Positions 24,996-41,716 of a DNA stretch of 64,000 nt are shown piece by piece. The notes below the pieces were generated by a model. That model had not been told where the DNA came from. It worked only from the letters and a program-made list of their open reading frames with translations, and searched no databases. The stretch's first letter is position 1. Every line of letters starts with the position of its first letter. A program made the translations under genes and the position numbers. The DNA comes from Pseudomonas sp. ANT_H4 (GTDB lineage: Bacteria > Pseudomonadota > Gammaproteobacteria > Pseudomonadales > Pseudomonadaceae), in the NCBI RefSeq assembly GCF_008369295.1, contig NZ_VOBG01000003.1, positions 1 to 64,000 on the forward strand, given 5' to 3'.

Positions 24996-25089
24996 CAAAA
25001 AACCCGCACTAGGCGGGTTTCTTGTGTGCTTTCAGGTGTGCTTGGCATCACCTGAAAACGAAAGGTGGTGCCCAGAGACGGAATCGAAC
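24996..25089. repeat. attL of the tRNA-Phe element (94-bp direct repeat)
   Basis: This segment repeats 41808-41901 with 92 of 94 matches (differences at the T/G in CTTGTGTGCT and the G/T in AAAACGAAAG). It carries 22 bases of the tRNA-Phe 3' end plus the 70 bases downstream, including the terminator hairpin. Left of it is backbone, right of it the element. The intact tRNA sits at the other end, as expected for integration into a tRNA 3' end. Confidence 0.9.
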
Positions 25090-25139
25090 AACTGTCTACA
25101 GGTCACGTATTTAAAGGGTTTGTCTTTGGTCGATATATA

Positions 25140-25160
25140 AATCTACTCACAAATCTACTC
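25140..25160. repeat. Integrase arm-type doublet, left end
   Basis: AATCTACTC occurs at 25140 and 25152, a 12-bp offset, about 50 bp inside attL. The same word ATCTACTCAC is repeated at the right end (41717-41764). Shared direct repeats close to both cores are what arm-type integrase sites look like. Confidence 0.65.
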
Positions 25161-25314
25161 TCTTTTCAGAATGCTGCTCTGTTTTGAACCTGCCGGCGGC
25201 GACCGAAACCGTGCTGATTTCCTCTGTCGATGCCCGACGAGTGGTAACGCCATCTTGATAAGCCCGCCCAAGTGCAAAGGTATGGCCATCACCACCACTC
25301 CTTTGATGGATCAG

Positions 25315-25473
25315 TCAAAAAGTGGCCCGATTATCTCGTTCCTCACTTTTGAGGAGCCATCGCCACACTTTTGCGGCGATGGTGCTGGCGCCGTGTGGCA
25401 GTTCCACCACACAGAGGCGTTCTTGCCATTCCCCGCGCCAGCACCACCCCGGATCAGGGTAGTGGTCATTCAT
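25315..25473 (-). CDS. Small phage-type protein, 52 residues
   Basis: The reading frame from ATG 25473 gives MNDHYPDPGWCWRGEWQE, then RLCVVELPHGASTIAAKVW and a basic-acidic tail (LKSEERDN). The composition is protein-like and I believe I have seen similar small proteins in Pseudomonas prophages. Its function is unknown. Its start codon lies inside a 27-bp sequence that recurs at 27098-27124. No clear ribosome binding site is seen. Confidence 0.5.
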   Translation of the reverse strand: MNDHYPDPGWCWRGEWQERLCVVELPHGASTIAAKVWRWLLKSEERDNRATF

Positions 25474-25488
25474 GGGGTGTTTCGCGAA
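25462..25488. repeat. 27-bp perfect direct repeat, copy 1 (copy 2 at 27098-27124)
   Basis: The repeat begins GTGGTCATTCATGGGG and ends TTTCGCGAA. Both copies, read on the minus strand, place ATGAATGACCAC (Met-Asn-Asp-His) at the start of a short ORF, of 52 codons here and 33 codons at 27008-27109. It also contains the palindrome TTCGCGAA. It could be a duplicated gene start or a protein-binding site. Confidence 0.7.
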
Positions 25489-25587
25489 CGGGTGGTGTGC
25501 GGGATTATCCATAATTAACCTGACCTCCCATTCCGGTATGGCAGGTACTTGAAAAACTACCGAGGCTCCGGCGGCTCCCTTTTCCGG

Positions 25588-25788
25588 CTACAAGCGCATT
25601 TCCCTGATGACGCGCCTTGGCTCAGCTCCCCGTGAAAGGGCGCGCCGGGCGTCCTTGGTGAGCTGGTCGAGCGCTTGCTCCTCGAATGCTGCCGCCATTG
25701 CGCTGGCCTTCCTGACGATCAGCAGCGCCAGCTCCGGCGGAAACACCACCTTGTCGGCGGGTAGATAATCACAGTCAATAACGGACAC
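25588..25788 (-). CDS. Small hypothetical protein, 66 residues
   Basis: The start is set at GTG 25788 (VSVIDCDYLPADKVVFPPEL), because the frame upstream is arginine/serine-rich and not protein-like. The product is helical (ALDQLTKDARRALSRG) and ends RRVIREMRL. No domain is recognised. It lies at the left end of the element, transcribed toward attL. Confidence 0.5.
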   Translation of the reverse strand: MSVIDCDYLPADKVVFPPELALLIVRKASAMAAAFEEQALDQLTKDARRALSRGAEPRRVIREMRL

Positions 25789-26097
25789 GGCTCTATCCTC
25801 GGTACGCGGTGGGTGCTGGCGCCGGAATGAAGCGGGGCCAGCAGATGACCTGCAGATGTTACCAGCGGAACGTGAGCATCTACCTGGAATCCGGGGGTTG
25901 GCCAAGCTGGCAAGCTGAGCGGTTTCCGCTCCAGGGTGAACAACTCGTTCACCACCTGCTCCGGCCTGCTGTCAGGCCGCTGGAAGCCACGGCAAATACT
26001 TGACGAGCATCTAGCGACAGGACACCACATTTCACGCTGGCGGCGGCGCGCTGCGTGGGCTGCGGGCAGTTTGCCCGTGGTCTGTCGGCGAAAATTC

Positions 26098-27056
26098 GTC
26101 TAGGGTCTGTCTAGTATTGCCTGGCGCGCTAAGCATTTTTCTGGCCCGGTATTTCACCACCCCATCCCGCCAGCCCGGGCTTGATATTGATCGAGCAGTT
26201 ACCTTGACGGCCGCCTCTAGAGTTTTAGACGAGGCTGGTGCTGGTCAGACAGCCCGAATGCTCGCAAAGCCTTGATCTGCGTGGCTTTCAGCGCTCCAGC
26301 CGCTGATGGCTCCGGGTAAATCCGTCAAGACCTGTCAAGAATTTCGTCAAGGCTGGTCAAGGATTCGGCTCTCGGAGCCGCCCGCCACGGGTATGCCCCA
26401 AATTCTGGACGTGGTGGGTATCTGGACTGTTACGCCGATCTGTCGGAGCCCTTGATCGCTGGGGCTCCCGGCCTGAATCAGGTTGCGTGCCGCGGCGCGA
26501 TCCGTCCAGAGCCTGTCCAGAATCCTATCCAGCGTCAGGACTGCCCCAGGCTGCCGGCGACGGTAAGCTCAGCAATGCCCTGGCGAATGAACACCAGGTT
26601 CTCATCGAGCGTTTCCAACGCGCCGCGCACGTTGTTGGCAATGTCTGCCGATCCGCGCTGCTCGACCCAGCAGGAAAGCCCCTCCACTGCGGCGCCCAGT
26701 GCGAGCTGGTTTTGATTGAGGCGGTCGAACAGGCTGGCTATCAGTTTGGTATCCGTCATGGTGGCTCTCCGAGTTTCAATGAAGCGTAGCACCGGCGCCT
26801 GGAGAATCGTCTGGGGTCTGTCGGGGGTGTGAGACGGCCAGACAGCCTACTTTGACGCAGCCCCCACGGAATAAGCCTCAGACGCCCATCCAGCTTGGAT
26901 TCCGTCTCATGCCTGTCTCACATTCCGTCAAAGTGTGGTCAAAGTAAAAGCCGGCCCAGGGTATAGGCATAACCCATCACCTTGTGCGCTCGAAACCGTG
27001 TTGATTCCTACACAGAGTGTCGTTTTCCACACGCTTGGACCTGACAAAACCTGACA
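26098..27056. repeat. Cluster of short doublets, set A (GTC-type words)
   Basis: Outside the gene at 26535-26759 this mostly non-coding stretch holds a run of doublets: GTCTAG at 26098 and 26109; GTCAAGA at 26324 and 26334; GTCAAGG at 26346 and 26356; GTCCAGA at 26504 and 26515; GTCTCA at 26904 and 26915; GTCAAAG at 26927 and 26938; CCTGACA at 27040 and 27050. Offsets are 10 or 11 bp. The word is the same within a pair but changes between pairs. No function is known to me. The rest of 25789-26534 has no supported gene. Confidence 0.8.
26535..26759 (-). CDS. Small helical protein, paralogue of the 13255-13473 gene
   Basis: The protein has 74 residues from ATG 26759 (MTDTKLIASLFDRLNQNQLA). Its ALGAAVEGLSCWVEQRG and ALETLDENLVFIRQGI align with the 72-residue protein in the tRNA-Thr island. 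GGAGAGCCACC upstream gives a GGAG ribosome binding site. It is the only gene in a 1.9-kb zone full of doublet repeats. The function is unknown. Confidence 0.65.
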   Translation of the reverse strand: MTDTKLIASLFDRLNQNQLALGAAVEGLSCWVEQRGSADIANNVRGALETLDENLVFIRQGIAELTVAGSLGQS

Positions 27057-27097
27057 GGGAGTCGACCGAGGTAAAGCGAGCGAATGGTGGTTTTGAT

Positions 27098-27124
27098 GTG
27101 GTCATTCATGGGGTGTTTCGCGAA
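27098..27124. repeat. 27-bp perfect direct repeat, copy 2
   Basis: It is identical to 25462-25488. On the minus strand it opens a 33-codon frame (MNDHIKTTIRSLYLG) ending at 27008. That frame is too short and lacks a ribosome binding site, so I do not call it a gene. Confidence 0.7.
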
Positions 27125-27141
27125 GGCGGGCAGGTTGCCAG

Positions 27142-27695
27142 TGGAAACCACTGCAAAACCCTGGAAACCACAGTGGAAACCAGCGCCTGGCAACCATAAC
27201 TTTTGATAACAGGTTGGCGGCTTGGTTCGCACCTGGTTCGCGTAAGAGGGTGCGAACCAGGAGTGCGAACCTCAGTGCGAACCTGCTGCCGGTACGCACC
27301 CAGAATACGCATTAGCGGTGCGCAATTTGCGCAATCGCTGCGCAGAAACCGGTGGGCCATTGCTGGCGCTGGAGCCTCTGCATCATCGCGCTGACATAAC
27401 TCGATCTGCTGTTACACCGGCTGTTACACGGCTCCAGTGCGTGAATATGCTGCGTGAAACTCTGCGTGAAATCTTGCCGGGGCGATGCTTCGCGCAGGCC
27501 AGGTGCGCGATGGGCGTGCGCGAAACACTGCGCAACACGCGCCGGCCGAAACTGGGCGCCAGCCTTACGTGGGGTTGTTTCGAGAATCGGGCGTCTTGAT
27601 GGTTGTGCCCCGTCCATAGTGCGCACCTGGCCCGGCCAACGTCCTAGGTGTCCGCTCCGCACCAGCGCGATACCGTGGATACCAGAGTGGATACC
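27142..27695. repeat. Cluster of short doublets and triplets, set B
   Basis: Non-coding DNA with repeated words: TGGAAACCA at 27142, 27162 and 27174; TGGTTCGC at 27223 and 27234; GTGCGAACC at 27250, 27263 and 27275; TGCGCAAT at 27319 and 27328; GCTGTTACAC at 27408 and 27420; TGCGTGAA at 27438, 27451 and 27463; GTGCGCGA at 27503 and 27516; GATACC at 27669, 27678 and 27690. Offsets are mostly 9-13 bp. The words differ from set to set. No gene is supported here. Confidence 0.8.
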
Positions 27696-27714
27696 GTGAC
27701 TGTGATGCCGCTGC

Positions 27715-27915
27715 CTACTGGAGGTCTGGCTCGGCTTTTATGCCCAACGCTATTGCCGCACGGTGGGCCTTTCCGCGATACCCCTTTTTCGCTCCCGACA
27801 AAACCTGATACGTGGTGGCGGGGTCGAGGTCATGTTGGCGGGCGAACTCCTGGACACTGATGCCGTGGGCGCGCAGCCAGGTTTTAGCCTCACTTGGCGA
27901 TCTGAGTGTTTTCAT
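27715..27915 (-). CDS. Cro/CI-type small DNA-binding protein
   Basis: The protein has 66 residues from ATG 27915 (MKTLRSPSEAKTWLRAHG). The helix-turn-helix is ISVQEFARQHDLDPATTYQV, followed by LSGAKKGYRGKAHRAAIALG. This is a pattern of phage Cro-like regulators found in Pseudomonas prophages. The 380 bp upstream contain the 10-bp-offset doublet array, which may be its operator region. It probably controls genes at the left end of the element. Confidence 0.7.
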   Translation of the reverse strand: MKTLRSPSEAKTWLRAHGISVQEFARQHDLDPATTYQVLSGAKKGYRGKAHRAAIALGIKAEPDLQ

Positions 27916-28009
27916 CGAGCAGTCCAAATTGGTATGAGTTTGCTCAATTCTAGCTCTTCGTTGGGCCTTTGTAGTCGGGTGAAATAGCCTGATCTGGTAA
28001 GCGCCAGCG

Positions 28010-28297
28010 ACTTAACAAAACTTAACCTTTTTTCGCGGCCAGAACCCGCCGCTGGCCTGCCGAAGCTACTTGTCAAAACTTGACATCGGAGCGGCGCAGG
28101 AACCTGTCAAAACCTGTCATCGAGCAAGCACTAGAACCTTACAAAACCTTACATTGGATCGAGTGCGAGGCCCGGCGCGATGTTGACAAATGTTGACATC
28201 GGATCGGCTTGGAGCGGATGAGAGCGCTCGCGGCCTGTTAGCAAAAGTTAGTCCCTGGAAACGCCCCTTGGCCCACCGACTGTTAACGATTGCTGAC
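28010..28297. repeat. Array of doublets with exact 10-bp offset
   Basis: Pairs: ACTTAAC at 28010 and 28020; ACTTGTC/ACTTGAC at 28068 and 28078; AACCTGTCA at 28101 and 28111; AACCTTACA at 28135 and 28145; TGTTGACA at 28181 and 28191; GTTAG at 28237 and 28247; TGTTAAC/TGCTGAC at 28281 and 28291. All have a 10-bp offset, one turn of the helix, with AAA or AAAA between words in most. Several are followed by ATCGGA, ATCGAG or ATTGGATCG. The array lies between the sensor-kinase stop and the Cro-like gene start. Confidence 0.85.
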
Positions 28298-28307
28298 GGA
28301 ATCGAAA

Positions 28308-29432
28308 TTAGGCGATGGGAAGTTTCACGACAAAAACTGTCCCTTGATCTGCGTTAGAGCTGACATCGATTGAGCCGTTATGTGATGCCACGATCTCTGA
28401 GGCGATGAACAGGCCCAGTCCGAGCCCCTCAGTCGGTCCGTGATCAATTGCAGCTCTCTGAGAGAAACGCCCTAGAGGATTAAATATAAACGGGAGTACG
28501 TCCTCTGGTATGGGCTCGCCATCGTTAAGGACGGTGAAAATAGCGCACCCCTCAAAGGTCTCTAACTCCACCTTGATAGGGAGTTGATTATTTCCATGAT
28601 GTACAGCGTTGCTAATTATGTTAGAGAAGACTTGCTCCACTCTGGCACCGTCAAATTGCCCGTTAACTGGGGCTTTCGCTTCGAACAAGATCCTTGCCTC
28701 AGGATGAAACGCTCTGATCTCTTCGACGACTCGTTCGCAAAGGGGCGAAAGATCTATATTCGCCGGTTTGACAGGTATGCCTGGCCCCATCTGGCAACGT
28801 GTCAAATCAAGGAGATCTCCAACGATTTGGCTGGCTCGACGCACGCTTGTATATATCTGATTGGCAACTTTGGTTGCCCTGGCACCGGTCCCTTCTAAGC
28901 GCCTCAACACGTCGGCACCCAGCAAGATCGCCCCAAGGGGGGTACGCAGGTCGTGGCCCAGAATGCCTAAAAACACGTTTCGTGACGCCTCAACCGCTCG
29001 GGAGTAGCTGGCGACGGATTCTGCGAGAGCTTGATCGATGGCCTCATGGAAGCGGGTCATGTCGTCAACATTAATCGGCGTGCCGTCCTTAACTTGCCTC
29101 ATCCACTGACTGACGACGCTCGTTCTCAGGGCTCGATATTCCGACACCATTTGATCAATCGTGAATCCAGCCATTAACCGCGTCATTGCATGAATTTCAG
29201 CTGCGGTTTCTTCATCATCTAAAGGGGCTTGGCCTTGAGACTTCGCAGCTTGCTCTCGCTTTGTCTGCTTTGTTCGCAAGTCACTGACTATTGCCAGCAA
29301 CATCTGTTCAGCATGATCTCGCAAAGCCTCACTATCGAGGTCTGCGCCTGGCGTTTCAATGGTTCTGGCGAAATCTTCCCAGGCCTGCAGAATCGGCTCA
29401 AGGTTCTCTAGAATGAAATCGGGCAGGCGCAT
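28308..29432 (-). CDS. Orphan sensor histidine kinase with RsbRD-type N-terminal domain
   Basis: The protein has 374 residues and no membrane segment. Residues about 5-140 form a helical RsbRD_N-like sensor domain (FILENLEPILQAWEDFARTI). The dimerisation/phosphoacceptor segment LGILGHDLRTPLGAILLGAD contains His160. The ATPase domain has FSNIISNAVHHGN (N box) and EGLGLGLFIASEIV (G2 box). No response regulator gene is adjacent. It lies inside the tRNA-Phe element as likely cargo and could act on a chromosomal regulator of the host. Confidence 0.88.
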   Translation of the reverse strand: MRLPDFILENLEPILQAWEDFARTIETPGADLDSEALRDHAEQMLLAIVSDLRTKQTKREQAAKSQGQAPLDDEETAAEIHAMTRLMAGFTIDQMVSEYRALRTSVVSQWMRQVKDGTPINVDDMTRFHEAIDQALAESVASYSRAVEASRNVFLGILGHDLRTPLGAILLGADVLRRLEGTGARATKVANQIYTSVRRASQIVGDLLDLTRCQMGPGIPVKPANIDLSPLCERVVEEIRAFHPEARILFEAKAPVNGQFDGARVEQVFSNIISNAVHHGNNQLPIKVELETFEGCAIFTVLNDGEPIPEDVLPFIFNPLGRFSQRAAIDHGPTEGLGLGLFIASEIVASHNGSIDVSSNADQGTVFVVKLPIA

Positions 29433-29809
29433 GTCGGTGATCCTAATTGGATACGAGGCAGGTGCCAGCAGGAAAGCGAGGCTGCGCAGGTACGGTGTGA
29501 GCGGTGCTGGGCAGTGTAGGAGGTTATTTATAGCTTTTAAAGCTCGGCCCGTACTAGGCCCGCTTTGTCTATACGCATGATCAAAGCGTCGCCAGCTTTA
29601 ACGCTGACCCTGACCTCTTGCGTCCATTGCTTAGAGCACCCTTCCGAAGTACGCGCCGAGAGGGTGTGAGATCCGAATGTAAGCCCGAAGATAGATGGTA
29701 ACCAGGCGTGGGTGGTTACTTTTGGTGGTTACCCGAGTGGTTGCCGGTGAAGCAGCGAAACAGACGACTTGGTCTGAATGAGCCCATATCGTCTGTCTCA
29801 GAGCGTGAC
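29433..29809. other. Intergenic region upstream of the sensor kinase
   Basis: There is no supported gene. It probably holds the kinase promoter. It contains one more doublet (GGTGGTTAC at 29711 and 29724) and a related GTGGTTGCC at about 29737. Confidence 0.5.
29711..29732. repeat. Doublet GGTGGTTAC, 13-bp offset
   Basis: GGTGGTTAC occurs at 29711-29719 and 29724-29732, in non-coding DNA between the kinase and the lipoprotein terminator. It is the same style of repeat as the doublets at 26-28 kb. Confidence 0.7.
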
Positions 29810-29832
29810 AAAGCCGCCCGAAGGCGGCCCTG
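29810..29832 (-). terminator. Hairpin after the lipoprotein gene
   Basis: GGGCCGCC, loop TTCG, GGCGGCTTT on the minus strand, about 10 bp after the lipoprotein stop. The T-run is short (TTT), so efficiency is uncertain. Confidence 0.5.
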
Positions 29833-29840
29833 TCTTTTCG

Positions 29841-30263
29841 CTACAGCGTGGTTGGGAGGATGTCTAAAACGCCGTCCCCGCTCGTTGATATTCGGTAGCT
29901 TTTCACCTTCCCGCCGGTGACGATTGTTTCTCGCTCCTGCCTCTCGGCCCCCATCCCGCAGATGCCGCCTCCTTGGTAGGCCGCGCCGACAACAACAGAC
30001 CCCGCTGGAACGTGGAGGGCAACCCTCTCTCCAGGCTTGAGTAATGCCGCCACTTTCCCGTCTACGAAAAGGCCTACCGAGCAAAGACTTCCCGTATGGC
30101 CAGAGTCTCGGGTCACCGATAGCGTACCTGTACCTGGCGCATCTTTCTGGTATGCAAGAACCCTTTCAGGCGGCACCGCAACAGCGTTTTTGATTGGCAC
30201 CGGGGAAGTAGCACAGCCCGCCAGCAGGGCGGCAAATAGTGCTGTTGTGGCTATCCTGCGCAT
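29841..30263 (-). CDS. Phage-associated lipoprotein
   Basis: The protein has 140 residues. The N-terminus MRRIATTALFAALLAGCATS is a lipoprotein signal with lipobox LLAGC (Cys17). The mature part is soluble (VLAYQKDAPGTGTLSVTRDS, VALHVPAGSVVVGAAYQGG). Similar lipoproteins occur next to tail genes in Pseudomonas prophages, as far as I recall. It follows the tail-assembly-protein-I gene by 39 bp. A role in altering the cell surface of the host, such as exclusion, is possible. Confidence 0.7.
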   Translation of the reverse strand: MRRIATTALFAALLAGCATSPVPIKNAVAVPPERVLAYQKDAPGTGTLSVTRDSGHTGSLCSVGLFVDGKVAALLKPGERVALHVPAGSVVVGAAYQGGGICGMGAERQERETIVTGGKVKSYRISTSGDGVLDILPTTL

Positions 30264-30302
30264 ACATCGTCCTCCGTTGAAAAAGGCAATTTACCATCGT
30301 CG

Positions 30303-30905
30303 CTACATCTGGTCTTCGGCGTAGATAGCGGCGCTGATAATCGCGCCTCCTACCCGCCGCTTGCCGTAGCAGAGCGGTACCGGGTTACCGGATGCCGTGG
30401 TGTTGCGTGCTGAGCCAAATGCATAACCGGGAGTATTCTCTGGTGCGGCACTGGTTTTGAGGCCGCCGGCCTGGGGGCTAAGCATTTGGATAATGCCACC
30501 GATCGCCATGGCCGCGCCAACTTGGTAGAGGAACGGGGAGGCTGCCGCGAACGGGGTGAATGAAAGCACAAAGGCAGCAGCGATCAAGACAGACCCAATG
30601 ATGGTTTGCAATGAGCCTCCGCGCTTGCTGCCGGTAATTACCGGCGCAATCGTGATGTCGCCGGTACCACTGAAGTTCAGTTCGCTCTCCCCGATGTTTC
30701 GCTTGTCTCGGAACACGGCGAACTCCAAGCCTCTGGACTTTGCGTTCGAGAGGTAGCGTTCAAAGCCAGGGATCTGCACACACAAGGCTTTTACGGCTTC
30801 CGCCGGTGTGCGCACGGCCAATGGATAGGATTTGCCGAACTGGCGGAGGGCACCGCGAAGTTTGAAGTTGATGACTGGCGTGTATTCGATCACTGATGCG
30901 GCCAT
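30303..30905 (-). CDS. Lambda tail assembly protein I-like
   Basis: The protein has 200 residues and starts after AGGAG. The N-terminal 90 residues (FKLRGALRQFGKSYPLAVRT, FRDKRNIGESELNFSGTGD) match the lambda gene I family (tail assembly, TAI). A hydrophobic glycine/alanine-rich middle follows (FVLSFTPFAAASPFLYQVGA). The C-terminus resembles the segment that ends such proteins (TTASGNPVPLCYGKRRVGGA). In lambda, I is needed to assemble the tail tip with J. Here no J, K, L, M or tape-measure gene accompanies it. Confidence 0.85.
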   Translation of the reverse strand: MAASVIEYTPVINFKLRGALRQFGKSYPLAVRTPAEAVKALCVQIPGFERYLSNAKSRGLEFAVFRDKRNIGESELNFSGTGDITIAPVITGSKRGGSLQTIIGSVLIAAAFVLSFTPFAAASPFLYQVGAAMAIGGIIQMLSPQAGGLKTSAAPENTPGYAFGSARNTTASGNPVPLCYGKRRVGGAIISAAIYAEDQM

Positions 30906-30917
30906 AGTTTATTTCTC

Positions 30918-31298
30918 CTACTTGTCGTTGGTGGCGTGGGTTGGTACTTCGGCGCCGATCTGCATGGCGAGCATCATTCGGGATGCCATGGCGTCGTCAC
31001 GGATAGCCTTTTCGCGGCGTGGGTCAGGGTTCCACGCCCAGCAATGGATCGCCTGGTAGGCGCGAGCCCCACGGAATGTCCCGCGCAATAGGTCGGCCGA
31101 GATCCCTCCCTCGTCCTCTGTGAAAAATGGCCCGTCGATGGTCACCTTCTGCCCATCACGGACGTGTTGCACTTCCCAGACGAGGTAGCCGCCATTCATG
31201 TTTGGGGCGACGGCAAAATCCATGATTTTGCACGCCTCCGCGAAGCGCTCCCGGTACGTAGGCGCCTGGCCCGTTGTGTTGCTATCTTGGTCAGTCAT
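30918..31298 (-). CDS. Hypothetical protein, 126 residues
   Basis: I do not recognise it. It starts after a purine-rich ribosome binding site (AAAGGGGAAAAC). It is soluble, with mixed composition (CKIMDFAVAPNMNGGYLVWE, YQAIHCWAWNPDPRREK). It lies 12 bp upstream of the tail-assembly gene on the same strand, so the two are probably co-transcribed. Confidence 0.55.
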   Translation of the reverse strand: MTDQDSNTTGQAPTYRERFAEACKIMDFAVAPNMNGGYLVWEVQHVRDGQKVTIDGPFFTEDEGGISADLLRGTFRGARAYQAIHCWAWNPDPRREKAIRDDAMASRMMLAMQIGAEVPTHATNDK

Positions 31299-31404
31299 GT
31301 TTTCCCCTTTGCGCCGTTGGCGCTGGTCATGGGCTGGTGCCCGGTGGTGTTACTCGGTGTCGCGCCACGTTTTCGTGATTCGCAAAACGTGGCGCGGAAA
31401 ATGG

Positions 31405-32013
31405 TCAGTTGCCGACGATGCTCAGGGCGGGCGGTAGCTTTGGGCCGAACGGCGCACCCGGGGCGAATGGGTCGGGTAGTTGGTCTTCCGGGCATTCCCT
31501 GATGAACCTGATCATGGCGGCGTGGCAGGCGCGATACAGCGGGCCACCGGCGCCCCATTCGTCGCCCTTGCGGTCGGCGCTGTCCTCCAGTTGGGATAGG
31601 TAGGCCACTCCGCGAAGGCTGGTGTCACCGTCTGCGATAGCCCGATGACGATGTACTGGGTTGACGCTGAGCAGGTCGCACATCTGGTCGAAGCCCAACG
31701 CCTGCGCCAGCCCCTCACGGTCGAACATCAGTGATTGGCCAAACCCAGCAAGTGCGCTCCACGCTCCGCTGCGGGTGGCCTCTTGGTGTTCTTGGGCTCG
31801 CTCCTCCAATTCAGCAATGGTTTGCCGGGTGAAGGGGAGGAATGCTTTCAACTTGCCCGCCTGCCGGCGTAGGGCTCGCCGTTCACCGCGGATAACGTCG
31901 AGCTGGTCAGCAATGGCGCGGCAGATCCGCCGGGTGGTGATGAGCTGCGTTGCGGCGCTGATGCCGGGTTTCATACCGATGTTGCACAGGCGTGTGATAA
32001 GGCTGGGCGTCAT
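31405..32013 (-). CDS. Hypothetical helical protein, 202 residues
   Basis: The start ATG 32013 overlaps the stop of the upstream gene as ATGA. The first 100 residues are helical and basic (IRGERRALRRQAGKLKAFLP, FTRQTIAELEERAQEHQ). The rest is soluble (GAGGPLYRACHAAMIRFIRE). No domain is recognised. It belongs to the element's minus-strand gene series. Confidence 0.55.
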   Translation of the reverse strand: MTPSLITRLCNIGMKPGISAATQLITTRRICRAIADQLDVIRGERRALRRQAGKLKAFLPFTRQTIAELEERAQEHQEATRSGAWSALAGFGQSLMFDREGLAQALGFDQMCDLLSVNPVHRHRAIADGDTSLRGVAYLSQLEDSADRKGDEWGAGGPLYRACHAAMIRFIRECPEDQLPDPFAPGAPFGPKLPPALSIVGN

Positions 32014-32318
32014 TGGTGCGCCTCCATAGGTGTGGCGTCGTAGCAGGCGCGCAGGTCGGCGCCAACCATGCAATGGCGGCCGGTGGGTGCGTAGCAGCTC
32101 CGACAAACCATAATGTGGGTGAGGTACTGGTCACGGGTTTGCCGCCATTCGGGCGTGGCGGTGGCTGCGCTTGCGTGTGGGCTTGTGAGGAGCCGGGGAG
32201 TGCGCTCGACAGGGTTGGCCAGCACCAGGCGTGGGCGAGGCCGACTATCCATTTTTGGCGTGTCGGTACTGGCAATGGCTGGCGGCATGTGATCAAGCAA
32301 GCCGGAAAGCAGACTCAT
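32010..32318 (-). CDS. Small protein with cysteine/histidine cluster
   Basis: The start is set at ATG 32318 (MSLLSGLLDHMPPAIAST), which has AGGTAA upstream; the longer frame starting at 32345 has no ribosome binding site. The C-terminal half has CRSCYAPTGRHCMVGADLRA followed by another Cys, spaced like a small zinc ribbon. The product has 102 residues. It overlaps the next gene as ATGA. The function is unknown. Confidence 0.55.
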   Translation of the reverse strand: MSLLSGLLDHMPPAIASTDTPKMDSRPRPRLVLANPVERTPRLLTSPHASAATATPEWRQTRDQYLTHIMVCRSCYAPTGRHCMVGADLRACYDATPMEAHQ

Positions 32319-32373
32319 GGCGTTACCTCGGCCTGATTGCTCCATTGCCCATATGTGTCTCTAGAAAAAAATC

Positions 32374-32602
32374 GGGGGAACGGGGGAACAGTGGGAACAG
32401 CCAGTGTTTTCGGGGCTTTCAGAGGGGGGTTCTGTTCCCCACGTTTTTTTGTGGGGAACAGTGATAACCAAATACTCGGAAACGCGGACACGCTTATATT
32501 CAAAAACATGTTTGTGTTCCCCCTGTTCCCCATACATTCAATAAGGGGGAACGGCCACAGCCCACGGTTTTACTGGCTGTTCCCCCGTTCCCCCTGTTCC
32601 CC
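32374..32602. repeat. GTTCCCC / GGGGAAC repeat cluster, candidate origin of the element
   Basis: GGGGGAAC is repeated at 32374 and 32382, with GTGGGAAC at 32391. TGTTCCCCAC (32433) and GTGGGGAACA (32451) form a perfect 10-bp inverted repeat around a T-rich loop. TGTTCCCC lies at 32515 and 32524; GTTCCCCC at 32579 and 32587; TGTTCCCC at 32595. It sits in the only large gap of the operon, directly downstream of primase and helicase genes. Iteron-like repeats at this position suggest an origin or a binding site for the replication proteins. Confidence 0.7.
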
Positions 32603-32654
32603 ACGTTTATAGGTTCCTGTGAACTCGGGCATTCATACTTGGTGGATATGGTGG

Positions 32655-34457
32655 TCATGCGCCGCCCCCTTCGCTGTCCATGGCTTCTGGATCGATCACG
32701 TACAGGCGCGCCGAACCGCCGGCGGGGATGCGGTACTTTTTGGTTTTGCGGCTATCGCGGTCGGTGTCGCGTTTGGCCAGGGCACCGCCAACCTCCAGTG
32801 CCTTGACCACGCGGGTGAGGCCGAACCCATGGGCGGCCTCGATCAGTGCGGACTTGTTGAACAGATAGAGCCGCTTGCCGGCCACCAGCTCCCAGTAACC
32901 GGCGCGGTTGAATACCTTGGCATCCACCTCTGCTGCGTCGACATCGGAGAATCGGCTGCTGCCGTGCTTGTCGATAAAATCGATGATGCCGGCCAGGATC
33001 TGGCGGTCTTCTGCGTTGCCCCCGCCGACACGGGAGAGCCATTCCCCGTAGAGCAAGCGGCAGTCGGAGAGGGCGGTGCCCGGCTCCCATGGCAACAGGC
33101 CGTAGGCGATGGCCATCTCGCCCGCCAGCGCGATCACGGCGAACCGGTCGGCCACGCGCCCGGCCTGGGCGTTGTCCTCGACGAACTGGGCGCGGATGCC
33201 GTCAAAGTCACTGAGCAGCCCGGGCTTATCGTCGGCGGCGACTAGGCGCTCCACAAACGCTGGTCCAAGGTGGCCGTGGTGGGCGCCGACCGCTACGGTG
33301 AGCTGCCGGTGAAAGTCCGCTCCCTCAAGTCCGTGCAACTCGTCAAAGGCCCGGTGTGTGCGGGTACCGGCGTTCACGTCGACCATGCGTAACTCAGCGC
33401 CAGCGTGGGCGGCATTGCCGGATATGGCCGCGTGTTCAGAGAGTGAGCGCTCTCCGCTGGAGAGTGTCAGCAGGCGCCAGCTCAATTTGGCGCGGCCTTC
33501 GCGCTCACGGGTCATGGTGCCTTTGCCCTGGCCGTTGGCGAGGGAGTAGGCCATTTCCTGTACGCGCTTGGGGTCGGCGCGCTTTATCTCATCCAAGGGC
33601 AGGATGGTGTCATTGCGGCTCGACGCTTCGATCTCCAGGCCGCCCTTGGTCATGTCCCAACTGGCGGCGAACACGCCCGGGTCACCCCATACCGACGATC
33701 CGATCAGTTGCGCCAGCGACTTACCGCTCGAGCTATCGCCCACCAGGTGAACGCCACCGCCCAGCACGCCGACCAAACTCAGCAATGGGCCAGCCAGTGA
33801 GCAGCCGATCGCCAGTGTCAGCACTGGGTTACCCGCACACTTGGCGGCCACCTCCGATTGCCACAGCGTCAGCTCGCCGCGCCGACTGAAAAGTACCTGA
33901 GCCTTGTTGCTGGCCTGGTACCGCACATTGGCGCTGCCGATGGTTCGCCCAGGCAGCACGAACGCGCCCGACTCATGCCAGCCTGGCCGGCTGGTGGTGG
34001 CAAACACTTCTGCAGGATGCTGGTCGAGCAGGTACTCCATGAACGTGCCGCGTTTCTTGAGGGCGATAATGACGCCCATCCCGAACAAGGCTCGCCGGGC
34101 GTCCTCGCCGCTGCCGCCGAACACTTCCATGGCGATGATCCATTCCTTGATGCCGCCCTCTGTGACTAGGCGTAGCAGCCGGCCCTCGCTGCCATCGTCG
34201 CTGTTGGTGGTGCGGGCGACGACGGTGACGGGGCTGGAGATCCACTCATCAGTGATAGGCCGGTCGCCGGTATCGCCCTCGGCGTCGTCCTGGTCAGCGG
34301 CGGCGCGCTTGAAGCTATGCCAGTAAACGCCCGGGCGCAGCTTGCGGCCCTTCTCATTGATTACCCAATGCTCGTACACCGCCCAGCAGGGGCGATCTGG
34401 AGCAATGATCGCGGCGTCCGGCCGAAGGTTGATCACGTTGGTGTCAGGCTTGGACAT
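32655..34457 (-). CDS. DUF927-domain helicase/ATPase
   Basis: The start is placed at ATG 34457 (MSKPDTNVINLRPDAAIIAP), overlapping the primase gene by 14 bp; the frame upstream lies inside that gene. Length is 600 residues. The DUF927 domain includes a Walker A motif VGDSSSGKSLAQLIGSSVWG near residue 240 and LPLDEIKRADPKRVQEMAYS as Walker B region. The C-terminal 80 residues look like a winged helix (RVVKALEVGGALAKRDTDRD). Such proteins pair with Toprim primases in P4-like and other satellites and are thought to unwind the origin. Confidence 0.85.
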   Translation of the reverse strand: MSKPDTNVINLRPDAAIIAPDRPCWAVYEHWVINEKGRKLRPGVYWHSFKRAAADQDDAEGDTGDRPITDEWISSPVTVVARTTNSDDGSEGRLLRLVTEGGIKEWIIAMEVFGGSGEDARRALFGMGVIIALKKRGTFMEYLLDQHPAEVFATTSRPGWHESGAFVLPGRTIGSANVRYQASNKAQVLFSRRGELTLWQSEVAAKCAGNPVLTLAIGCSLAGPLLSLVGVLGGGVHLVGDSSSGKSLAQLIGSSVWGDPGVFAASWDMTKGGLEIEASSRNDTILPLDEIKRADPKRVQEMAYSLANGQGKGTMTREREGRAKLSWRLLTLSSGERSLSEHAAISGNAAHAGAELRMVDVNAGTRTHRAFDELHGLEGADFHRQLTVAVGAHHGHLGPAFVERLVAADDKPGLLSDFDGIRAQFVEDNAQAGRVADRFAVIALAGEMAIAYGLLPWEPGTALSDCRLLYGEWLSRVGGGNAEDRQILAGIIDFIDKHGSSRFSDVDAAEVDAKVFNRAGYWELVAGKRLYLFNKSALIEAAHGFGLTRVVKALEVGGALAKRDTDRDSRKTKKYRIPAGGSARLYVIDPEAMDSEGGGA

Positions 34458-35325
34458 GGGCGAGTTTCCAGTTGGCGAGGTCGTTGAAGTCGGTGAGGTC
34501 ATCGGGAGCGCCTTCCGGCCACTCAGGGAAAGCCACTTGGCCACCCACCGCCGCCGCCGCTGCGTTTGCCGCTGCGCGCCCCGGGTTGCCATCGGTGAGC
34601 CGGTCGTCGTCGCCGGCGATGACGATTGGCTGGCCCGGGTAGCGAGCGCGTAGGCTCATCGCCGCCGGGATCAGGTTGCCCGCGTTCATGGCAGCGGCAA
34701 CGACATAGCCGCCGTGCTGGTGGAGGCTGGCGGCTGTCGCCCACCCTTCGCAGATGCAAAGCACAGAACCTGGCTCGATGATGCCCAGCGGCGAATAGGC
34801 GCCCTTGATCCGTCCGCCGAACAGGAAGCGCTTGTCGCCGTCCGGGGCAATTCGTTGCAGGTTGACCAAGCGCCCATCCAGGTAGAGCGGGATCAGCAGG
34901 TCAGTGCCACGCTGGCGCAGGCCGTAGGAGCGAACTGCCTTGGCTACCAGATACGGGTGGTCGGGTGAGGCGCGGCGCGCATTGCGCCACCAGTGGTTAG
35001 CCTTCTCGGCGGCCTGCTGCTGGCGCCGGTGTTGCTCGGCTTCGCGCTGGCGCCGGGCCTGGTCAACTCGCTCGCGGATCTGGGCCGCTTCGCGGGCGTC
35101 CACCGGTTCGCGACTACACCAAGTACTGGTGCCACCGGCCTTCCAGCTACCGAACGCGCCGGACGCGATACCGTCAGCAAACAACGTGTACCAGCCATTG
35201 AACGAGCCGGCCTTGTCGCCAGGGACGTGGAAGCGGTGAATGATTCCGTCTTCCACGGGTAGCCAGTCGAGCGGGCCATAGACGGCCTGGAGCGCATCAC
35301 GGAATAGGATCGTCACGTCTGTCAT
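34444..35325 (-). CDS. Toprim-domain DNA primase
   Basis: The protein has 293 residues. A short N-terminal part (FHVPGDKAGSFNGWYTLFAD, GAFGSWKAGGTSTWC) resembles the degenerate zinc/primase entry domain of phage primases. A basic coiled region follows (near 75-105). The Toprim fold has the catalytic glutamate in LCICEGWATAASL (near residue 190) and IVIAGDDDRLTDGNPG (near 235). It overlaps the upstream gene as ATGA and the helicase gene by 14 bp. Confidence 0.88.
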   Translation of the reverse strand: MTDVTILFRDALQAVYGPLDWLPVEDGIIHRFHVPGDKAGSFNGWYTLFADGIASGAFGSWKAGGTSTWCSREPVDAREAAQIRERVDQARRQREAEQHRRQQQAAEKANHWWRNARRASPDHPYLVAKAVRSYGLRQRGTDLLIPLYLDGRLVNLQRIAPDGDKRFLFGGRIKGAYSPLGIIEPGSVLCICEGWATAASLHQHGGYVVAAAMNAGNLIPAAMSLRARYPGQPIVIAGDDDRLTDGNPGRAAANAAAAAVGGQVAFPEWPEGAPDDLTDFNDLANWKLAHVQA

Positions 35326-35549
35326 GCGGCCCCCTTCGGCGGGGTAAACCGCTTGGCCAAGTTCTCCAGTTTCTGAGTCAGGCGCTCCAGCTCATCGCAG
35401 TGGCGGCCTTGGTCGCCTTCCGAGATACGCAGCTCCAGGAAGCCGACCAGGGTTTCCACCAGCAACACATAGCTGGCGCTGTCGATGTGGGCGCCAGCAG
35501 TGGGTGGGCCGCCACTGCCCTTGGGTTTGATTGGGGTCACGTTACCCAT
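35322..35549 (-). CDS. Small hypothetical protein, 75 residues
   Basis: The start MGNVTPIKPKGSGGPPTAG is followed by a helical segment (ASYVLLVETLVGFLELRISE, LERLTQKLENLAKRF). It overlaps the upstream gene by 8 bp and the primase gene as ATGA. No domain is recognised. Confidence 0.6.
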   Translation of the reverse strand: MGNVTPIKPKGSGGPPTAGAHIDSASYVLLVETLVGFLELRISEGDQGRHCDELERLTQKLENLAKRFTPPKGAA

Positions 35550-36003
35550 GAGTCACCCCCTCGGCGCTCGAATAACCGACCCAGGCGGCGCCGTCGAAGC
35601 GTTGCAGGCGCACGTCGGCCAGCGGCACGTCGCCAGCAATGGCAAACCAGTTGATGGGTGAGGCACCACGCTTGCGTCCCACAGATTCCAGCTTGCGGCG
35701 GGTGGTGCTGGTGATACCTGCGTACTTGCAGGCATCCACCCAACTCATCAGGCGCGCGTCGTCGGCAGGAAGGGAAAACCGGGCACAGCCAAACTCGGCC
35801 AGTTGCTCTGCAAAGGTCAGCAAGCGCGGACCATCCGCCCCCATGACCATCTTGGTCGCGGTGCCCTCCCAGCGTTGTGCCTTGGAAAACCACACTAGCG
35901 GAGGCTCATGCTCGGCACCGGCGTTGTTTGGGCGAAGCGATCCAGACGTGAGGATCAGCGGCAGATGATGATGTTCGGTCGTGTAGTGGTGAACCATGAT
36001 CAC
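35542..36003 (-). CDS. Unknown protein with HYT motif at the N-terminus
   Basis: The protein has 153 residues. It starts MIMVHHYTTEHHHLPLILTS, then GSLRPNN and PPLVWFSKAQRWEGTATKM. A HYT near the start, an LILTSGSL step and a VWFS strand recall the layout of ADP-ribosyltransferase-like folds (DarT/KptA-type). I have no alignment to prove it. A small enzyme in a satellite operon could act in host takeover or defence. Starts and stops overlap its neighbours (ATGA upstream). Confidence 0.5.
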   Translation of the reverse strand: MIMVHHYTTEHHHLPLILTSGSLRPNNAGAEHEPPLVWFSKAQRWEGTATKMVMGADGPRLLTFAEQLAEFGCARFSLPADDARLMSWVDACKYAGITSTTRRKLESVGRKRGASPINWFAIAGDVPLADVRLQRFDGAAWVGYSSAEGVTHG

Positions 36004-36284
36004 TGGCCACCTCCTTGGCGATCAGCGCCAGCAAAGGCCCGACAAACTTGACCGTTGTTCACTCCGTGCCAGTGGGTAATGTCGTCAATTGCTTCAACCA
36101 GGCAGGCCGTCACCTGAGCATCCGCGCTTCGCATAACGACACGCCCGCACTCGGCGTCAGCCTCTGTTAAGAACGGCCCCAGCAGTGCCTTTGGCACTTT
36201 TGGATGAGTCACGTAAAACAGCTCGGCGGCTTTCTTCAGGCAAGCCGATCCCGTCGACGCAGATGCGCCGTTTTGAATTTTCAT
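36000..36284 (-). CDS. Small hypothetical protein, 94 residues
   Basis: It begins MKIQNGASASTGSACLKKAA and contains ALLGPFLTEADAECGRVVMR. It ends with a glycine-rich tail (AGADRQGGGQ). It starts 10 bp after the preceding 41-residue gene, with AGGTTAATT upstream as a ribosome binding site. The function is unknown. Confidence 0.6.
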   Translation of the reverse strand: MKIQNGASASTGSACLKKAAELFYVTHPKVPKALLGPFLTEADAECGRVVMRSADAQVTACLVEAIDDITHWHGVNNGQVCRAFAGADRQGGGQ

Positions 36285-36294
36285 AATTAACCTC

Positions 36295-36420
36295 TTAGGT
36301 CAGGGCGCCGGTACGATGCTTGGGTGACTTGGCCGTCGTTTCGGGCTCATCAATATCAAGGTGGACGATCCCTTGCTCCGACATGAGGGCACCGCCGTCT
36401 TGGAATTTGGCGATGGTCAT
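36295..36420 (-). CDS. Very small protein, 41 residues
   Basis: ATG 36420 overlaps the stop of the upstream gene as ATGA and the frame ends TAA at 36295. The product is MTIAKFQDGGALMSEQGIVH, then LDIDEPETTAKSPKH and RTGALT. It fills the gap between two coupled genes, which supports it as real. The function is unknown. Confidence 0.55.
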   Translation of the reverse strand: MTIAKFQDGGALMSEQGIVHLDIDEPETTAKSPKHRTGALT

Positions 36421-36920
36421 GGTTTCACCTTCGATTCAATCGAGGCCATAAAGGCCGCGTCAGTTCTTACCAGGCCTTCATTCGCCTGTTGGACGAAGGA
36501 CCGCTCAGGGATAGCGTCGAGAGTCGAGCCGAGGCGCTCAGCGGCAGCCTTAATCCAACTGCAAATTTCATTCATGAAGCCGGTGCGCTGGCCTTGTAAC
36601 GACGCAGCCTCGTCTTCGGTTGAGGGCTTCTTCGCGTCCATCGCCACGAGTATCGAACTGAGAATTCCCGATGCGTTGTGGATTTCGTCGCTGCGGTGAT
36701 CCCTGACGTACTTGAGATACACCAAAGCCATTGCGCGACCGGCGTCAATACCGCCGAAGTGGCCGCCCAACATTGGCACATCCCAGAAGGATTGCCGCCC
36801 ATGGTCCTTACCAACGAAAGGCAGCCGATCCCATGCCCACTTACCTTCCGGCTTCGACCGAAGGCCGATCTGCTTACTTTTGGGCAGTGGGCGCCTTGAT
36901 TTCGGGATAGAGGTCTTCAT
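36417..36920 (-). CDS. Hypothetical protein, 167 residues
   Basis: It has a basic N-terminus (MKTSIPKSRRPLPKSKQIGL) and then a soluble helical part (GIDAGRAMALVYLKYVRDHR, FMNEICSWIKAAAERLGSTL). No domain is recognised. It is coupled by ATGA on both sides. Confidence 0.6.
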   Translation of the reverse strand: MKTSIPKSRRPLPKSKQIGLRSKPEGKWAWDRLPFVGKDHGRQSFWDVPMLGGHFGGIDAGRAMALVYLKYVRDHRSDEIHNASGILSSILVAMDAKKPSTEDEAASLQGQRTGFMNEICSWIKAAAERLGSTLDAIPERSFVQQANEGLVRTDAAFMASIESKVKP

Positions 36921-37153
36921 GCTGGTGTGCCTCCCAACAAGTCAACCAACTCAATCAGCTCGTGCTGGGCCTGGTCAGAAAGGAGGTGGACCGCCTCATG
37001 GATGCTCATCTCGTTTTCAGCATCAAGCTGGGCTGGCGCATGACCTGTTGCCTCGGTCTTAAAGCAGTCGTTATCCATGAGGATGACTGCAAGGCCGCGA
37101 ATGACGCGCAGGTGGGCATCGATGTTGTTGTAGAGCTCGCGAGAACGAGTCAT
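36917..37153 (-). CDS. Small hypothetical protein, 78 residues
   Basis: The start MTRSRELYNNIDAHLRVIRG at 37153 is preferred because it overlaps the upstream stop as ATGA; the frame 19 codons longer has no such support. It is helical (IHEAVHLLSDQAQHELIELV). It belongs to the family of small helical proteins in this operon. The function is unknown. Confidence 0.6.
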   Translation of the reverse strand: MTRSRELYNNIDAHLRVIRGLAVILMDNDCFKTEATGHAPAQLDAENEMSIHEAVHLLSDQAQHELIELVDLLGGTPA

Positions 37154-37440
37154 GGCTTCACCTCCGAATCCCGCGCCACGTTTTCGGATTGCGCGTTCTG
37201 TGACGCGCACCCACTGAGAGCCTTGCCGATCGCCTCAAAATCTCCGCTGGCGGTGTTGGCACCATCAGCAGCCAGGTTCCACGCAATGTCCACCAGGTTG
37301 CGGACGTGCTGGCTCGTGCCATTGTCTGCCAGTGCGGCATACGGCAGGGATTCAAGCTTGCCCAGAACGACCTGTGCGCTGCCTAGATCCTCAAGAGCGT
37401 CGTGGGCGATTTCTTGGATGGTGCGGACGGGATTGTTCAT
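37150..37440 (-). CDS. Small hypothetical protein, 96 residues
   Basis: ATG 37440 (MNNPVRTIQEIAHDALEDLG) overlaps the upstream stop as ATGA. The protein is helical with SAQVVLGKLESLPYAALADN and LVDIAWNLAADGANTAS. It resembles other small DUF-type helical proteins of Pseudomonas prophages in style. The function is unknown. Confidence 0.6.
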   Translation of the reverse strand: MNNPVRTIQEIAHDALEDLGSAQVVLGKLESLPYAALADNGTSQHVRNLVDIAWNLAADGANTASGDFEAIGKALSGCASQNAQSENVARDSEVKP

Positions 37441-37652
37441 TGCGCACCACCAAGCAATATTGCGCACAGTTTGATCTCGGACCGCAGAGAGTGAACGCGG
37501 CCGGTGAGTGGATGGCCCGCAGACTTCATCAGTGGAACAACTTCATGGATCAAGATGCTTTCCAGTTGGACGGCAAGACCTACCAGGTCGCGAAACAGTT
37601 GTTCACGGCTGGTGCCGACTTCTGGCTGGATCAAATCAGTGGACGTATTCAT
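37437..37652 (-). CDS. Small hypothetical protein, 71 residues
   Basis: It begins MNTSTDLIQPEVGTSREQLF and is helical throughout (LVGLAVQLESILIHEVVPLM, VHSLRSEIKLCAILLGG). It is coupled by ATGA on both sides. The function is unknown. Confidence 0.6.
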   Translation of the reverse strand: MNTSTDLIQPEVGTSREQLFRDLVGLAVQLESILIHEVVPLMKSAGHPLTGRVHSLRSEIKLCAILLGGAQ

Positions 37653-38131
37653 TGCGTACCCCCGACAGACTCAAGGGAGCGGGCAATGGTCATGTGGTGC
37701 GAATAACGCTTGAGGCGGGTTGCGAGGCTGGAGTTTGCGCGGAGGGCGCTCAGGGCCATGCGGCGGTGAGCAAATGCGCGGAGCGCGGACGGATTTAGGG
37801 CTGGCATGGGTGTAGCTCCTTTTGCTGAGGAGCTGCCACGGTTCGCCGTCAAACGAATTAGGGTGGCAGCTGTGCGTGGGTTGACGGACCGGGGCAAAAG
37901 GAACCCGGCAGACCCGAAGGTCTCCCACGCACAGCCACCATAAACTTGATGTGCGGGCACAAAAAAAGCGCCTGCAATCGTGATGGGGGCGCCTGTGCGC
38001 CTTTTGCTAATCGGGCCGTCAAACCCAGCCACGGATTTTGCCATGACTTGGGGCGAACCATACCGATCACTTCCGGCGCGTGCAACCAAAGTTATCGACC
38101 GTTCATCGCCGATCATGAGCATAGCCGTCAT
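37649..38131 (-). CDS. Ash-like phage protein (tentative)
   Basis: The protein has 160 residues. VMAKSVAGFDGPISKRRTG, then AFFVPAHQVYGGCAWETFGS and SVNPRTAATLIRLTANRGSS, recall the Ash family found in P4-like satellites and prophages. A basic C-terminal segment follows (ALRAFAHRRMALSALRANSS). The overlap with Rha (29 bp) and the ATGA to the next gene support a real gene. The family assignment is from memory of the motif pattern and is tentative. Confidence 0.45.
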   Translation of the reverse strand: MTAMLMIGDERSITLVARAGSDRYGSPQVMAKSVAGFDGPISKRRTGAPITIAGAFFVPAHQVYGGCAWETFGSAGFLLPRSVNPRTAATLIRLTANRGSSSAKGATPMPALNPSALRAFAHRRMALSALRANSSLATRLKRYSHHMTIARSLESVGGTQ

Positions 38132-39223: not shown

Positions 39224-39348
39224 CGTCTAATCGCTCCAGGGCGGTTTGGGTAATCGACGATGAAAAGGTTGGCAGGGAGTGTGCGCAGTTAAAATTGCTG
39301 AGCGGCGCCGGATATTCTGTTAACCGGTCGGATGTGTGATTTATTCTT

Positions 39349-41669: not shown

Positions 41670-41716
41670 GCAGCCTCCTTGCAGGCCGCACCAGGCGGGC
41701 GTATTGCCGTCCTAGT

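Follow-up and report, generated by a model that had tools for sequence, protein, structure and literature searches.

In the genome of Pseudomonas sp. ANT_H4, a satellite prophage carries in its left arm an array of short words, each repeated about one helical turn apart. We analyzed this array in a stretch of 64,000 nucleotides (nt; contig NZ_VOBG01000003.1, positions 1 to 64,000), hereafter the window. Our results make it highly probable that this element, phiAH14b, keeps in its left arm a library of some 22 terminase recognition (pac) sites, all different, for packaging by many helper phages. Each site would consist of a paired or tripled word of ~6-9 bp, spaced by 10, 11 or 12/13 bp, as in phages from three families of the terminase small subunit (TerS) gene, terS. 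Class A words would be those found beside terS (phrog_546), class B words those inside it (phrog_1206), and class C words those inside some Terminase_2 terS genes.

The satellite occupies positions 25000-41900 of the window, is integrated at a tRNA-Phe gene (41878-41953) and encodes an integrase, AlpA and a DUF927 primase (Pfam). The integrase gene (40464-41669, minus strand) adjoins the tRNA gene, and the DUF927 primase/helicase, with both a domain and a PHROGs match, lies at 32655-34592 (minus strand). The closest phage record is phiAH14b (KU708005, 16,812 bp), with 100% identity over 98% of a 5-kb query (4911 bases), and by sequence the element is this inducible Pseudomonas satellite. Within the scope covered, namely Pfam on nine open reading frames (ORFs), PHROGs on 10 of the 29 annotated proteins and three TerS profiles across the whole element, it has the makeup of a P4-like phage satellite: an integrase at a tRNA, AlpA, a primase, and no capsid or terminase genes. 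Pfam also identified a lambda tail-I-like gene. It has been reported that phiAH14b is induced by mitomycin C together with phiAH14a, and that its DNA is circularly permuted and without cohesive ends (Dziewit and Radlinska, PMC4936722). The same authors found no terminase gene in phiAH14b, inferred that phiAH14a capsids take up its DNA by headful packaging as trimers, and suggested that p60 is the TerS of phiAH14a (PMC4936722). We found that p60 (28369-28845 of locus L173) belongs to phrog_546. PHROGs labels this family 'unknown function'; its position, its class A site and the gene order support phrog_546 being a TerS family.

The doublet array of the left arm

Exact direct repeats at offsets of 8-13 are in large excess between 25080 and 28300. 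We counted 31 of 6 nt or longer, 22 of 7 nt or longer and 16 of 8 nt or longer, against means of 4.3, 1.1 and 0.34 (maxima of 12, 6 and 4) in 500 dinucleotide shuffles. The 22 pairs of 7+ nt are concentrated at offsets 10 (seven pairs), 11 (four), 12 (six) and 13 (three), with one each at 8 and 9, and the other 51 offsets in the range 4-60 yield 14 such pairs in total. When pairs of 7+ nt at offsets 9-13 were considered, 26000-28310 contained 19 (8.2 per kb), compared with 27 in 46 kb of host flanks (0.59 per kb) and seven in the remaining element at 30000-41700 (0.60 per kb).

A first-pass annotation of this DNA had described, at 26098-28297, about twenty doublets in which the same word occurs twice with a different word each time, and had suggested comparing their number with shuffled sequence and with the rest of the genome. 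The excess holds against shuffles (22 pairs, mean of 1.1) and against the other parts of the window examined (8.2 compared with ~0.6 pairs per kb), and all five doublets cited as examples are where they had been placed: GTCAAGA at 26324/26334, GTCCAGA at 26504/26515, GCTGTTACAC at 27408/27420, GTGCGCGA at 27503/27516 and AACCTGTCA at 28101/28111. The words do differ from group to group, but several groups are triplets and the words fall into three classes, each a variation on one theme. The array does lie in the span described, but one further member stands beyond it, at 29711-29742.

By hand grouping, we recognized about 22 words in three architectural classes. Class A follows the pattern CCGTCnnnn..CTGTCnnnn with an offset of 10-12 (26098-26948). 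Class B comprises TGG, TGC or TGT words that frequently form triplets, at offsets of 13 then 12 (27139-27695, plus 29711). Class C has the form WORD-AA-WORD with an offset of 10 (27039 and 28010-28252). This list includes three imperfect pairs spotted by eye (26806, 28068 and 28237) and excludes the doublets at 25564, 25841, 25903, 25955, 26050, 27293 and 27669, as well as a doublet at 25139 that we assign to the integrase. Iteron and operator arrays also consist of short direct repeats about one helical turn apart, but in them one word is repeated. We rejected this candidate, as each group here has its own word. A coding role for the region was also rejected, the 10-13 bp offsets being without codon periodicity. 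Among three small left-arm ORFs (26535, 27715 and 25588), none matched a Pfam family; in PHROGs, ORF 27715 is a helix-turn-helix (HTH) DNA-binding protein and ORF 26535 belongs to an unknown family.

Array words at small terminase genes

A scan of viral contigs for paired TGCGTACC led to terminase small subunit genes (PHROGs; four examples tested). This word is intact in arrays of related elements, and the window has a degenerate 6-nt pair of it at 27293. Among the matches listed, the pair was inside a TerS ORF in 85 of 120 viral loci, as judged with profiles built from the terS genes of our family search, compared with none of 68 loci for the reversed word of the same composition. TerS ORFs make up 3.4% of the pooled viral-locus DNA. 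The GTGGAAACC pair, in turn, was inside a TerS ORF in 36 of 72 viral loci. Moreover, in 30 of the 85 terS genes the copies of TGCGTACC are not all in the same reading frame (VR- or GTQ-coding), which argues for selection on the DNA.

A survey for phrog_1206, in which genes were not chosen by word, gave 25 matches in 149 Pseudomonas genomes. We used 21 of them, leaving out L376, which lies near a contig end, L388 and L389, for which the choice of strand failed, and the weak fragment L391. In all 21 terS genes, a doublet or triplet of class B stands 177-199 nt from the match start: in 15 the word is one of this array, in five it is intact only in relatives' arrays, and in one it is neither. Ten words occur in these genes: six are in this array (GTGGATACC, TGGAAACC, GCGAACC, TGCGTGAA, TGCGCGAA and TGGTTACC), three are intact in the arrays of relatives but not here (TGGCAACC, TGCGTACC and TGGTCACC), and one, GTGGAACAC, is in neither. 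The spacing of 12 then 13 on the sense strand of terS equals 13 then 12 on the plus strand of the window, as expected for antisense sites. Matches to phrog_51 and phrog_370, among which were many loci known from the other searches and partial matches, were included in the recount of words in TerS ORFs and in the helix comparison below.

On the plus strand, where all array sites are given, class B begins with three copies of TGGAAACC at 27139-27182 (spacings 20 and 12), a doublet of which also occurs in the terS genes of L369, L370 and L371 and in TerS ORFs at 36 of 72 viral loci. Two copies of TGGTTCGC and then three of TGCGAACC follow at 27223-27284, as inverted sets with offsets of 11, then 13 and 12; the GCGAACC doublet is found in the terS genes of L374, L375, L378-L382 and L385. 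At 27319-27344, two copies of TGCGCAAT plus TGCGCA have offsets of 9 and 11, and a TGCGCA pair is present in 5 of 21 related loci. The GCTGTTACAC doublet at 27408-27429 (offset 12) has a 9-nt match in the terS genes of viral loci L497 and L536 (helix NHVAIT), and in the scan 2 of 120 matches fell in TerS, among the matches listed. Three copies of TGCGTGAA at 27438-27471 (offsets 13 and 12) recur as a triplet in the terS of L386, with sense-strand offsets of 12 and 13, and two copies of GTGCGCGA plus TGCGCAA at 27503-27535 correspond to TGCGCGA, present three times in the terS of L387. The 9-nt GTGGATACC doublet at 27675-27695 (offset 12) is identical to one in the terS of L367. Beyond the main array, 29711-29742 contains two copies of GGTGGTTAC and a third partial copy (offsets 13 and 12), and TGGTTACC occurs three times in the terS of L390.

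In class B TerS proteins, the putative recognition helix predicts the word without exception: among 121 distinct proteins there are 24 helix variants and 11 words, and no helix goes with two words. The correspondence is (S/T)(E/D)(G/A)xxRKRA with TGCGTAC, SDTAIR(K/A)KA with GCGAACC, NEATIRSRA with TGCGTGA, KESTIRSRA with TGCGCGA, (S/T)HTAI(N/G) with TGGAAAC, THGAIN with TGGATAC, SHTAIQ with TGGCAAC, NHATIL with TGGTTAC, AHNTIM with TGGTCAC, NHVAIT with TGTTACA, and SHTNIN with TGGAACA. These figures derive from 179 ORFs, nine of them outside the helix pattern; the other 170 collapse to 121 when proteins with the same first 120 residues are counted once, which still leaves close relatives among them, and the search for words used a preset list of 13. 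For eight of the 11 words, the correspondence comes from one or two proteins. In an AlphaFold model of modest quality (pLDDT 73.9, pTM 0.45), residues 31-40 form this helix, which comes second in an HTH-like pair. Searches of the PDB by sequence and fold with a class B TerS gave nothing useful. The helix-word correspondence would fit a specific recognition of the word by the HTH of TerS, which we infer.

Class A sites lie in front of terS. A survey for phrog_546, the TerS family of the helper, gave 35 matches, and we analyzed 30 upstream regions, that is, 29 loci (L392 being left out) and phiAH14a. A paired GTC site, defined by a loose motif, is found upstream of the start codon in all 30. In alignments, 28 of these sites score higher with the array than with each of 100 base-shuffled versions of it, with up to 24 of 25 identical bases and 22 of 25 for the site of phiAH14a. 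On manual reading, the two halves agree over at least six bases in 18 of the 30 regions. The source genome has a phrog_546 prophage of its own (L406, contig 8), which carries the phiAH14a site.

Within class A, GTCTAG..GTCTAG at 26098-26114 (offset 11) is a partial match to the helper, whose site halves are GTCTAGA and GTCAAGA. The group at 26321-26362 has two copies of GTCAAGA and two of GTCAAGG (offsets 10, 12 and 10); the GTCAAGG doublet is found upstream of terS in L402, L411 and L421, and GTCAAGA is matched over 6 nt only. The GTCCAGA doublet at 26501-26525 (offset 11) shares 24 of 25 bases with the terS upstream sites of L398, L408, L417 and L419 and 22 of 25 with phiAH14a. The imperfect pair GTCTGGGG/GTCGGGG at 26806-26830 shares 20 of 25 bases with the site of L405, and a perfect GTCAGGGGT doublet is present in relatives L034, L041, L042 and L050. 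Two copies of GTCTCA at 26901-26925 (offset 11) match the sites of L394, L396, L397 and L403 at 23-24 of 25 bases, and the GTCAAAGT doublet at 26924-26948 (offset 11) has the same word upstream of terS in L400, with 20 of 25 bases.

For class C, 18 matches to Terminase_2 were surveyed. In L423, TGTTGACA AA TGTTGACA (offset 10) lies within terS and resembles the ATGTTGACA doublet at 28180-28199 (offset 10). In L422, TGTTAG at offset 10, in the form TGTTAGCAAATGTTAGT, lies within terS and resembles GTTAGC/GTTAGT at 28237-28252 (offset 10, seen by eye). Two further loci, L425 and L426, have offset-11 doublets in terS (GGGCGAG and ACGGTAAG) of a kind seen in the array of L146, and the other 14 Terminase_2 loci contain no class C word. 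The ACCTGACA doublet at 27039-27056 (offset 10) was inside an ORF matching a TerS profile in 75 of 120 viral loci, among the matches listed, and the AACCTTACA doublet at 28135-28153 (offset 10) was inside a TerS ORF in 14 of 45 viral loci scanned. Three pairs are of class C type: ACTTAAC at 28010-28026 (offset 10), kept in L033, L035 and L044; ACTTGTCA/ACTTGACA at 28068-28085 (offset 10), seen by eye; and AACCTGTCA at 28101-28119 (offset 10), with a 6-nt terS match only. For the first two, no terS partner was found.

When the distinct doublet words of 7+ nt at terS sites were pooled, 16 of 28 matched the array, compared with 1 of 96 in the flanks of the same loci (Fisher p 8.5e-12), the share of class A being a lower bound. 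With the relatives' words added, the figures are 22 of 28 and 8 of 96. Altogether, 14 of the 22 words have a doublet match in or by terS (6 nt for GTCTCA and 7 or more for the others). Identity with words in terS would also be expected of remnants of terS genes that the element formerly carried and then lost, but three TerS profiles run against the 270 ORF segments of the element gave no match at E 0.1, class A sites match DNA upstream of terS over ~25 bp, and words of different terS families stand in succession and are common to relatives. We therefore consider an origin as remnants very unlikely.

Conservation in relatives and competing explanations

Of 298 Pseudomonas genomes searched at the DNA level, 266 had matches, many covering the tRNA end only, and our comparison of relatives is based on 20 fetched regions. 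These loci contain 3 to 25 doublets of 7+ nt each, L052 being nearly without any. Many words are common to relatives, with differing stretches between them and an order that, by eye, is largely kept; TGGCAACC, TGGTAACC, TGCGTACC, TGGTCACC and GTCAGGGG are intact only in relatives' arrays. In alignable stretches, 5.6% of word positions are changed, against 15.8% of all aligned positions. Among 136 changed word positions, ten have the same base in both halves (~1.5 expected if the halves were independent) and 11 have different bases; seven doublets were excluded from this test beforehand, and some alignments are perhaps not orthologous. Independent drift of the halves had been named in the first-pass annotation as an outcome that would speak against its reading. 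The words are clearly conserved, but strict co-change does not emerge, and the indication that halves change together is weak.

Functionless tandem duplications of 10-13 bp, produced by local slippage or copying, would also have nearly equal halves that differ between pairs. However, the spacing classes are kept though the spacers differ, word positions change less than the background in relatives, and the words match terS loci well above chance, so that we give this explanation almost no weight. A copying process that equalizes the halves, as had been proposed initially, is likewise not needed: the same paired words and spacings occur in or by phage terS genes, the helix differs with the word, and most changes in relatives affect one half.

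Integrase binding deserves separate mention. The AAATCTACTC doublet at 25139-25160 (plus strand, offset 12) stands apart from the packaging series and has a counterpart, the ATCTACTCAC doublet, at 41743 by the integrase gene; the shared doublet, AATCTACTC, is the only word found at both ends of the element. Most likely, it serves the integrase of this element as an arm-type site. Near the left end of the array, 15 of 20 relatives have a doublet that reads AAATCTACTC/TCTACTC, GGGATACAC or TTCCCCGTT. Such variation is as expected if the doublet belongs to the integrase, and its type probably follows the integrase type. That this probable arm site is itself a doublet, of offset 12 and present at both ends, lends something to the idea that the whole array consists of arm-type sites for many integrases, or of Cox/Vis or AlpA sites. 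On the other hand, no other array word is among the doublets at the integrase end, the partners of the words are in or next to terS with a helix-word correspondence, and relatives with a different left-end doublet share the other words. This explanation is thus highly improbable for the array, and of the arm-type or Cox/Vis sites first envisaged, the doublet at 25139 is the one that behaves as such. The more general suggestion of sites for many different proteins fares better in that proteins of helper phages fit, but the words match terminase small subunits rather than recombination proteins, Cox/Vis or regulators.

Another possibility is that the array is a decoy that titrates the small terminases of rivals or helpers and interferes with their packaging. 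The sharing of words with terS fits this idea equally, and interference of satellites with the packaging of their helpers is known (PMC5052747). One or few copies per word, however, should offer little for titration. In addition, phiAH14b is reported to be packaged headful by its helper without a terminase of its own (PMC4936722), and so needs at least one such site. Since the helper is reported to package it, working packaging sites are a simpler explanation, and a decoy array appears unlikely.

Our preferred explanation, a library of packaging sites, would work as follows. When a resident or incoming helper enters the lytic cycle, the satellite would replicate by its own primase. The helper's small terminase would find its own word in the array and recruit the large terminase, and satellite concatemers would be packed headful into helper capsids, about three genomes in each. 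With many words, one satellite could use many unrelated helpers. Because headful packaging needs no specific end cut, a short site could suffice; and in a concatemer of identical units the orientation of a site should matter little, which would allow class C to face opposite to the other two classes. There is a direct fit for the known helper and the class A sites, and for classes B and C use is predicted from sequence. TerS would bind the words, packaging would start at each site, and the satellite would benefit from a wide helper range.

Several observations weigh against this explanation. Word order in relatives is not strict, CTGTTACA being shifted in L044 and L051 and GTCTAGT in L050, and 115 of the 136 changed word positions are altered in one half only. 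Eight of the 22 words lack a close terS partner (none for ACTTAAC and ACTTGTCA, and 6 nt at most for TGCGCAAT). Likewise, CTGTTACA was in TerS at only 2 of 120 loci among the matches listed, AACCTTACA at only 14 of the 45 scanned, and class C words in only 2 of the 18 Terminase_2 loci. The reading-frame comparison made for TGCGTACC gave, for TGGAAACC, 0 of 36 terS genes with copies in more than one frame. The class A sites of L393 and L402 do not beat base-shuffled arrays, the halves differ in 12 of the 30 class A regions, including that of the helper phiAH14a, and the exact class A pattern had three matches in viral contigs, none at TerS. Relative to terS, class C is oriented opposite to A and B, and within the TGCGAACC group the first part stands inverted. 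As for the helix-word correspondence, many of the TGCGTAC and TGGAAAC genes were retrieved by word, and related genes are not independent. Finally, TerS proteins of SF6, P22 and others bound DNA weakly or non-specifically in vitro, while those of lambda and PaP3 bind cos specifically (PMC4737164, PMC9611059), and the binding mechanisms have been called unclear and controversial (PMC9611059).

On balance, we think it probable, though with less assurance than for the array itself, that satellite-type elements of Pseudomonas, and similar elements of Providencia and Morganella, keep libraries of terminase sites for a broad set of unrelated phages. The TerS proteins of phrog_1206 would read DNA by a simple code, helices E..IR, H..IN, H..IQ and H..IL specifying TGCG, TGGA, TGGC and TGGT, so that the array would be a list of usable helpers. 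If so, helper range could be predicted from sequence alone, the spread of one satellite through many phages would be explained, and the array would provide ready material for testing how small terminases select their DNA.

Known systems, related arrays and other features of the element

P4 uses one cos site of P2 type, and phiAH14b would have an array of pac-type sites. The two satellites are alike in their related integrase, AlpA and primase and in depending on a helper for packaging (P4/P2 as described in PMC4936722). The phiAH14a/phiAH14b study concerns the same element and reports headful packaging in helper capsids; in the passages of that paper considered here, doublets, a pac sequence or the use of several helpers are not mentioned, and the word 'repeat' occurs once (PMC4936722). 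Staphylococcal pathogenicity islands (SaPIs) of the cos type, such as SaPIbov5, are likewise satellites with a copy of the helper's packaging site and are packed by helpers that share it (PMC5052747). SaPIbov5, however, has one conserved cos of related phages (PMC5052747), whereas phiAH14b would have ~22 pac-type words of three terS families. In SPP1 and P22, too, pac is located at terS or inside it and can include direct repeats, and TerS has an HTH (PMC4737164, PMC9611059). Unlike in our 121 proteins, where word and helix correspond, the HTH domain of SF6/SPP1 alone shows little sequence preference (PMC4737164, PMC9611059). An array of different terminase sites in a satellite was not found in the literature searched, which mostly excludes preprints and subscription journals.

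Doublet arrays with several of the same words are present in contigs of Providencia rettgeri (L724 and L725) and Morganella morganii (L723), with 9-10 doublets of 7+ nt in 1.8-2 kb compared with 0.4-0.7 expected (maximum of five in 200 shuffles). A 770-aa ORF adjoins the Morganella array and by eye looks like a P4-type primase. We found that 351 of 5426 E. coli genomes match a Morganella array locus; in the one genome inspected, the match is to a neighboring gene and the region has three doublets of 7+ nt against 0.7 expected (maximum four), and we claim no array there. Beside dinD, E. coli A28 (L726, 8519-18466) has a DUF927 element that includes genes for injection and ejection proteins, and no array in the stretch examined.

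Some doublets outside our list also deserve attention. GCAGATG (25841-25861, offset 11) and CCTGCT (25955-25970, offset 10), the latter kept in 7 of 21 related loci, had no match at the terS loci; they may be sites of a fourth terS family. The array of L146 has the offset-11 words ACGGTGAG, AGGGCGAG, ACGGTAAG and TTACGGCAAG in series at 11640-11810. In L434, L436 and L439, GATGTTAAA-type repeats of offset 12, a set absent from this array, lie ~180 nt away from where the Terminase_2 match starts.

Elsewhere in the satellite, a histidine kinase with an RsbRD_N domain is encoded at 28308-29432 (minus strand). A C4 antisense RNA (RF01695, 89 bits) lies at 37859-37945 (minus strand), which we presume could be an immunity RNA. 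Beside the DUF927 primase gene, GGGGAAC/GTTCCCC repeats with offsets of 8-9 at 32373-32600 are possible replication iterons, and similar repeats are found in L042.

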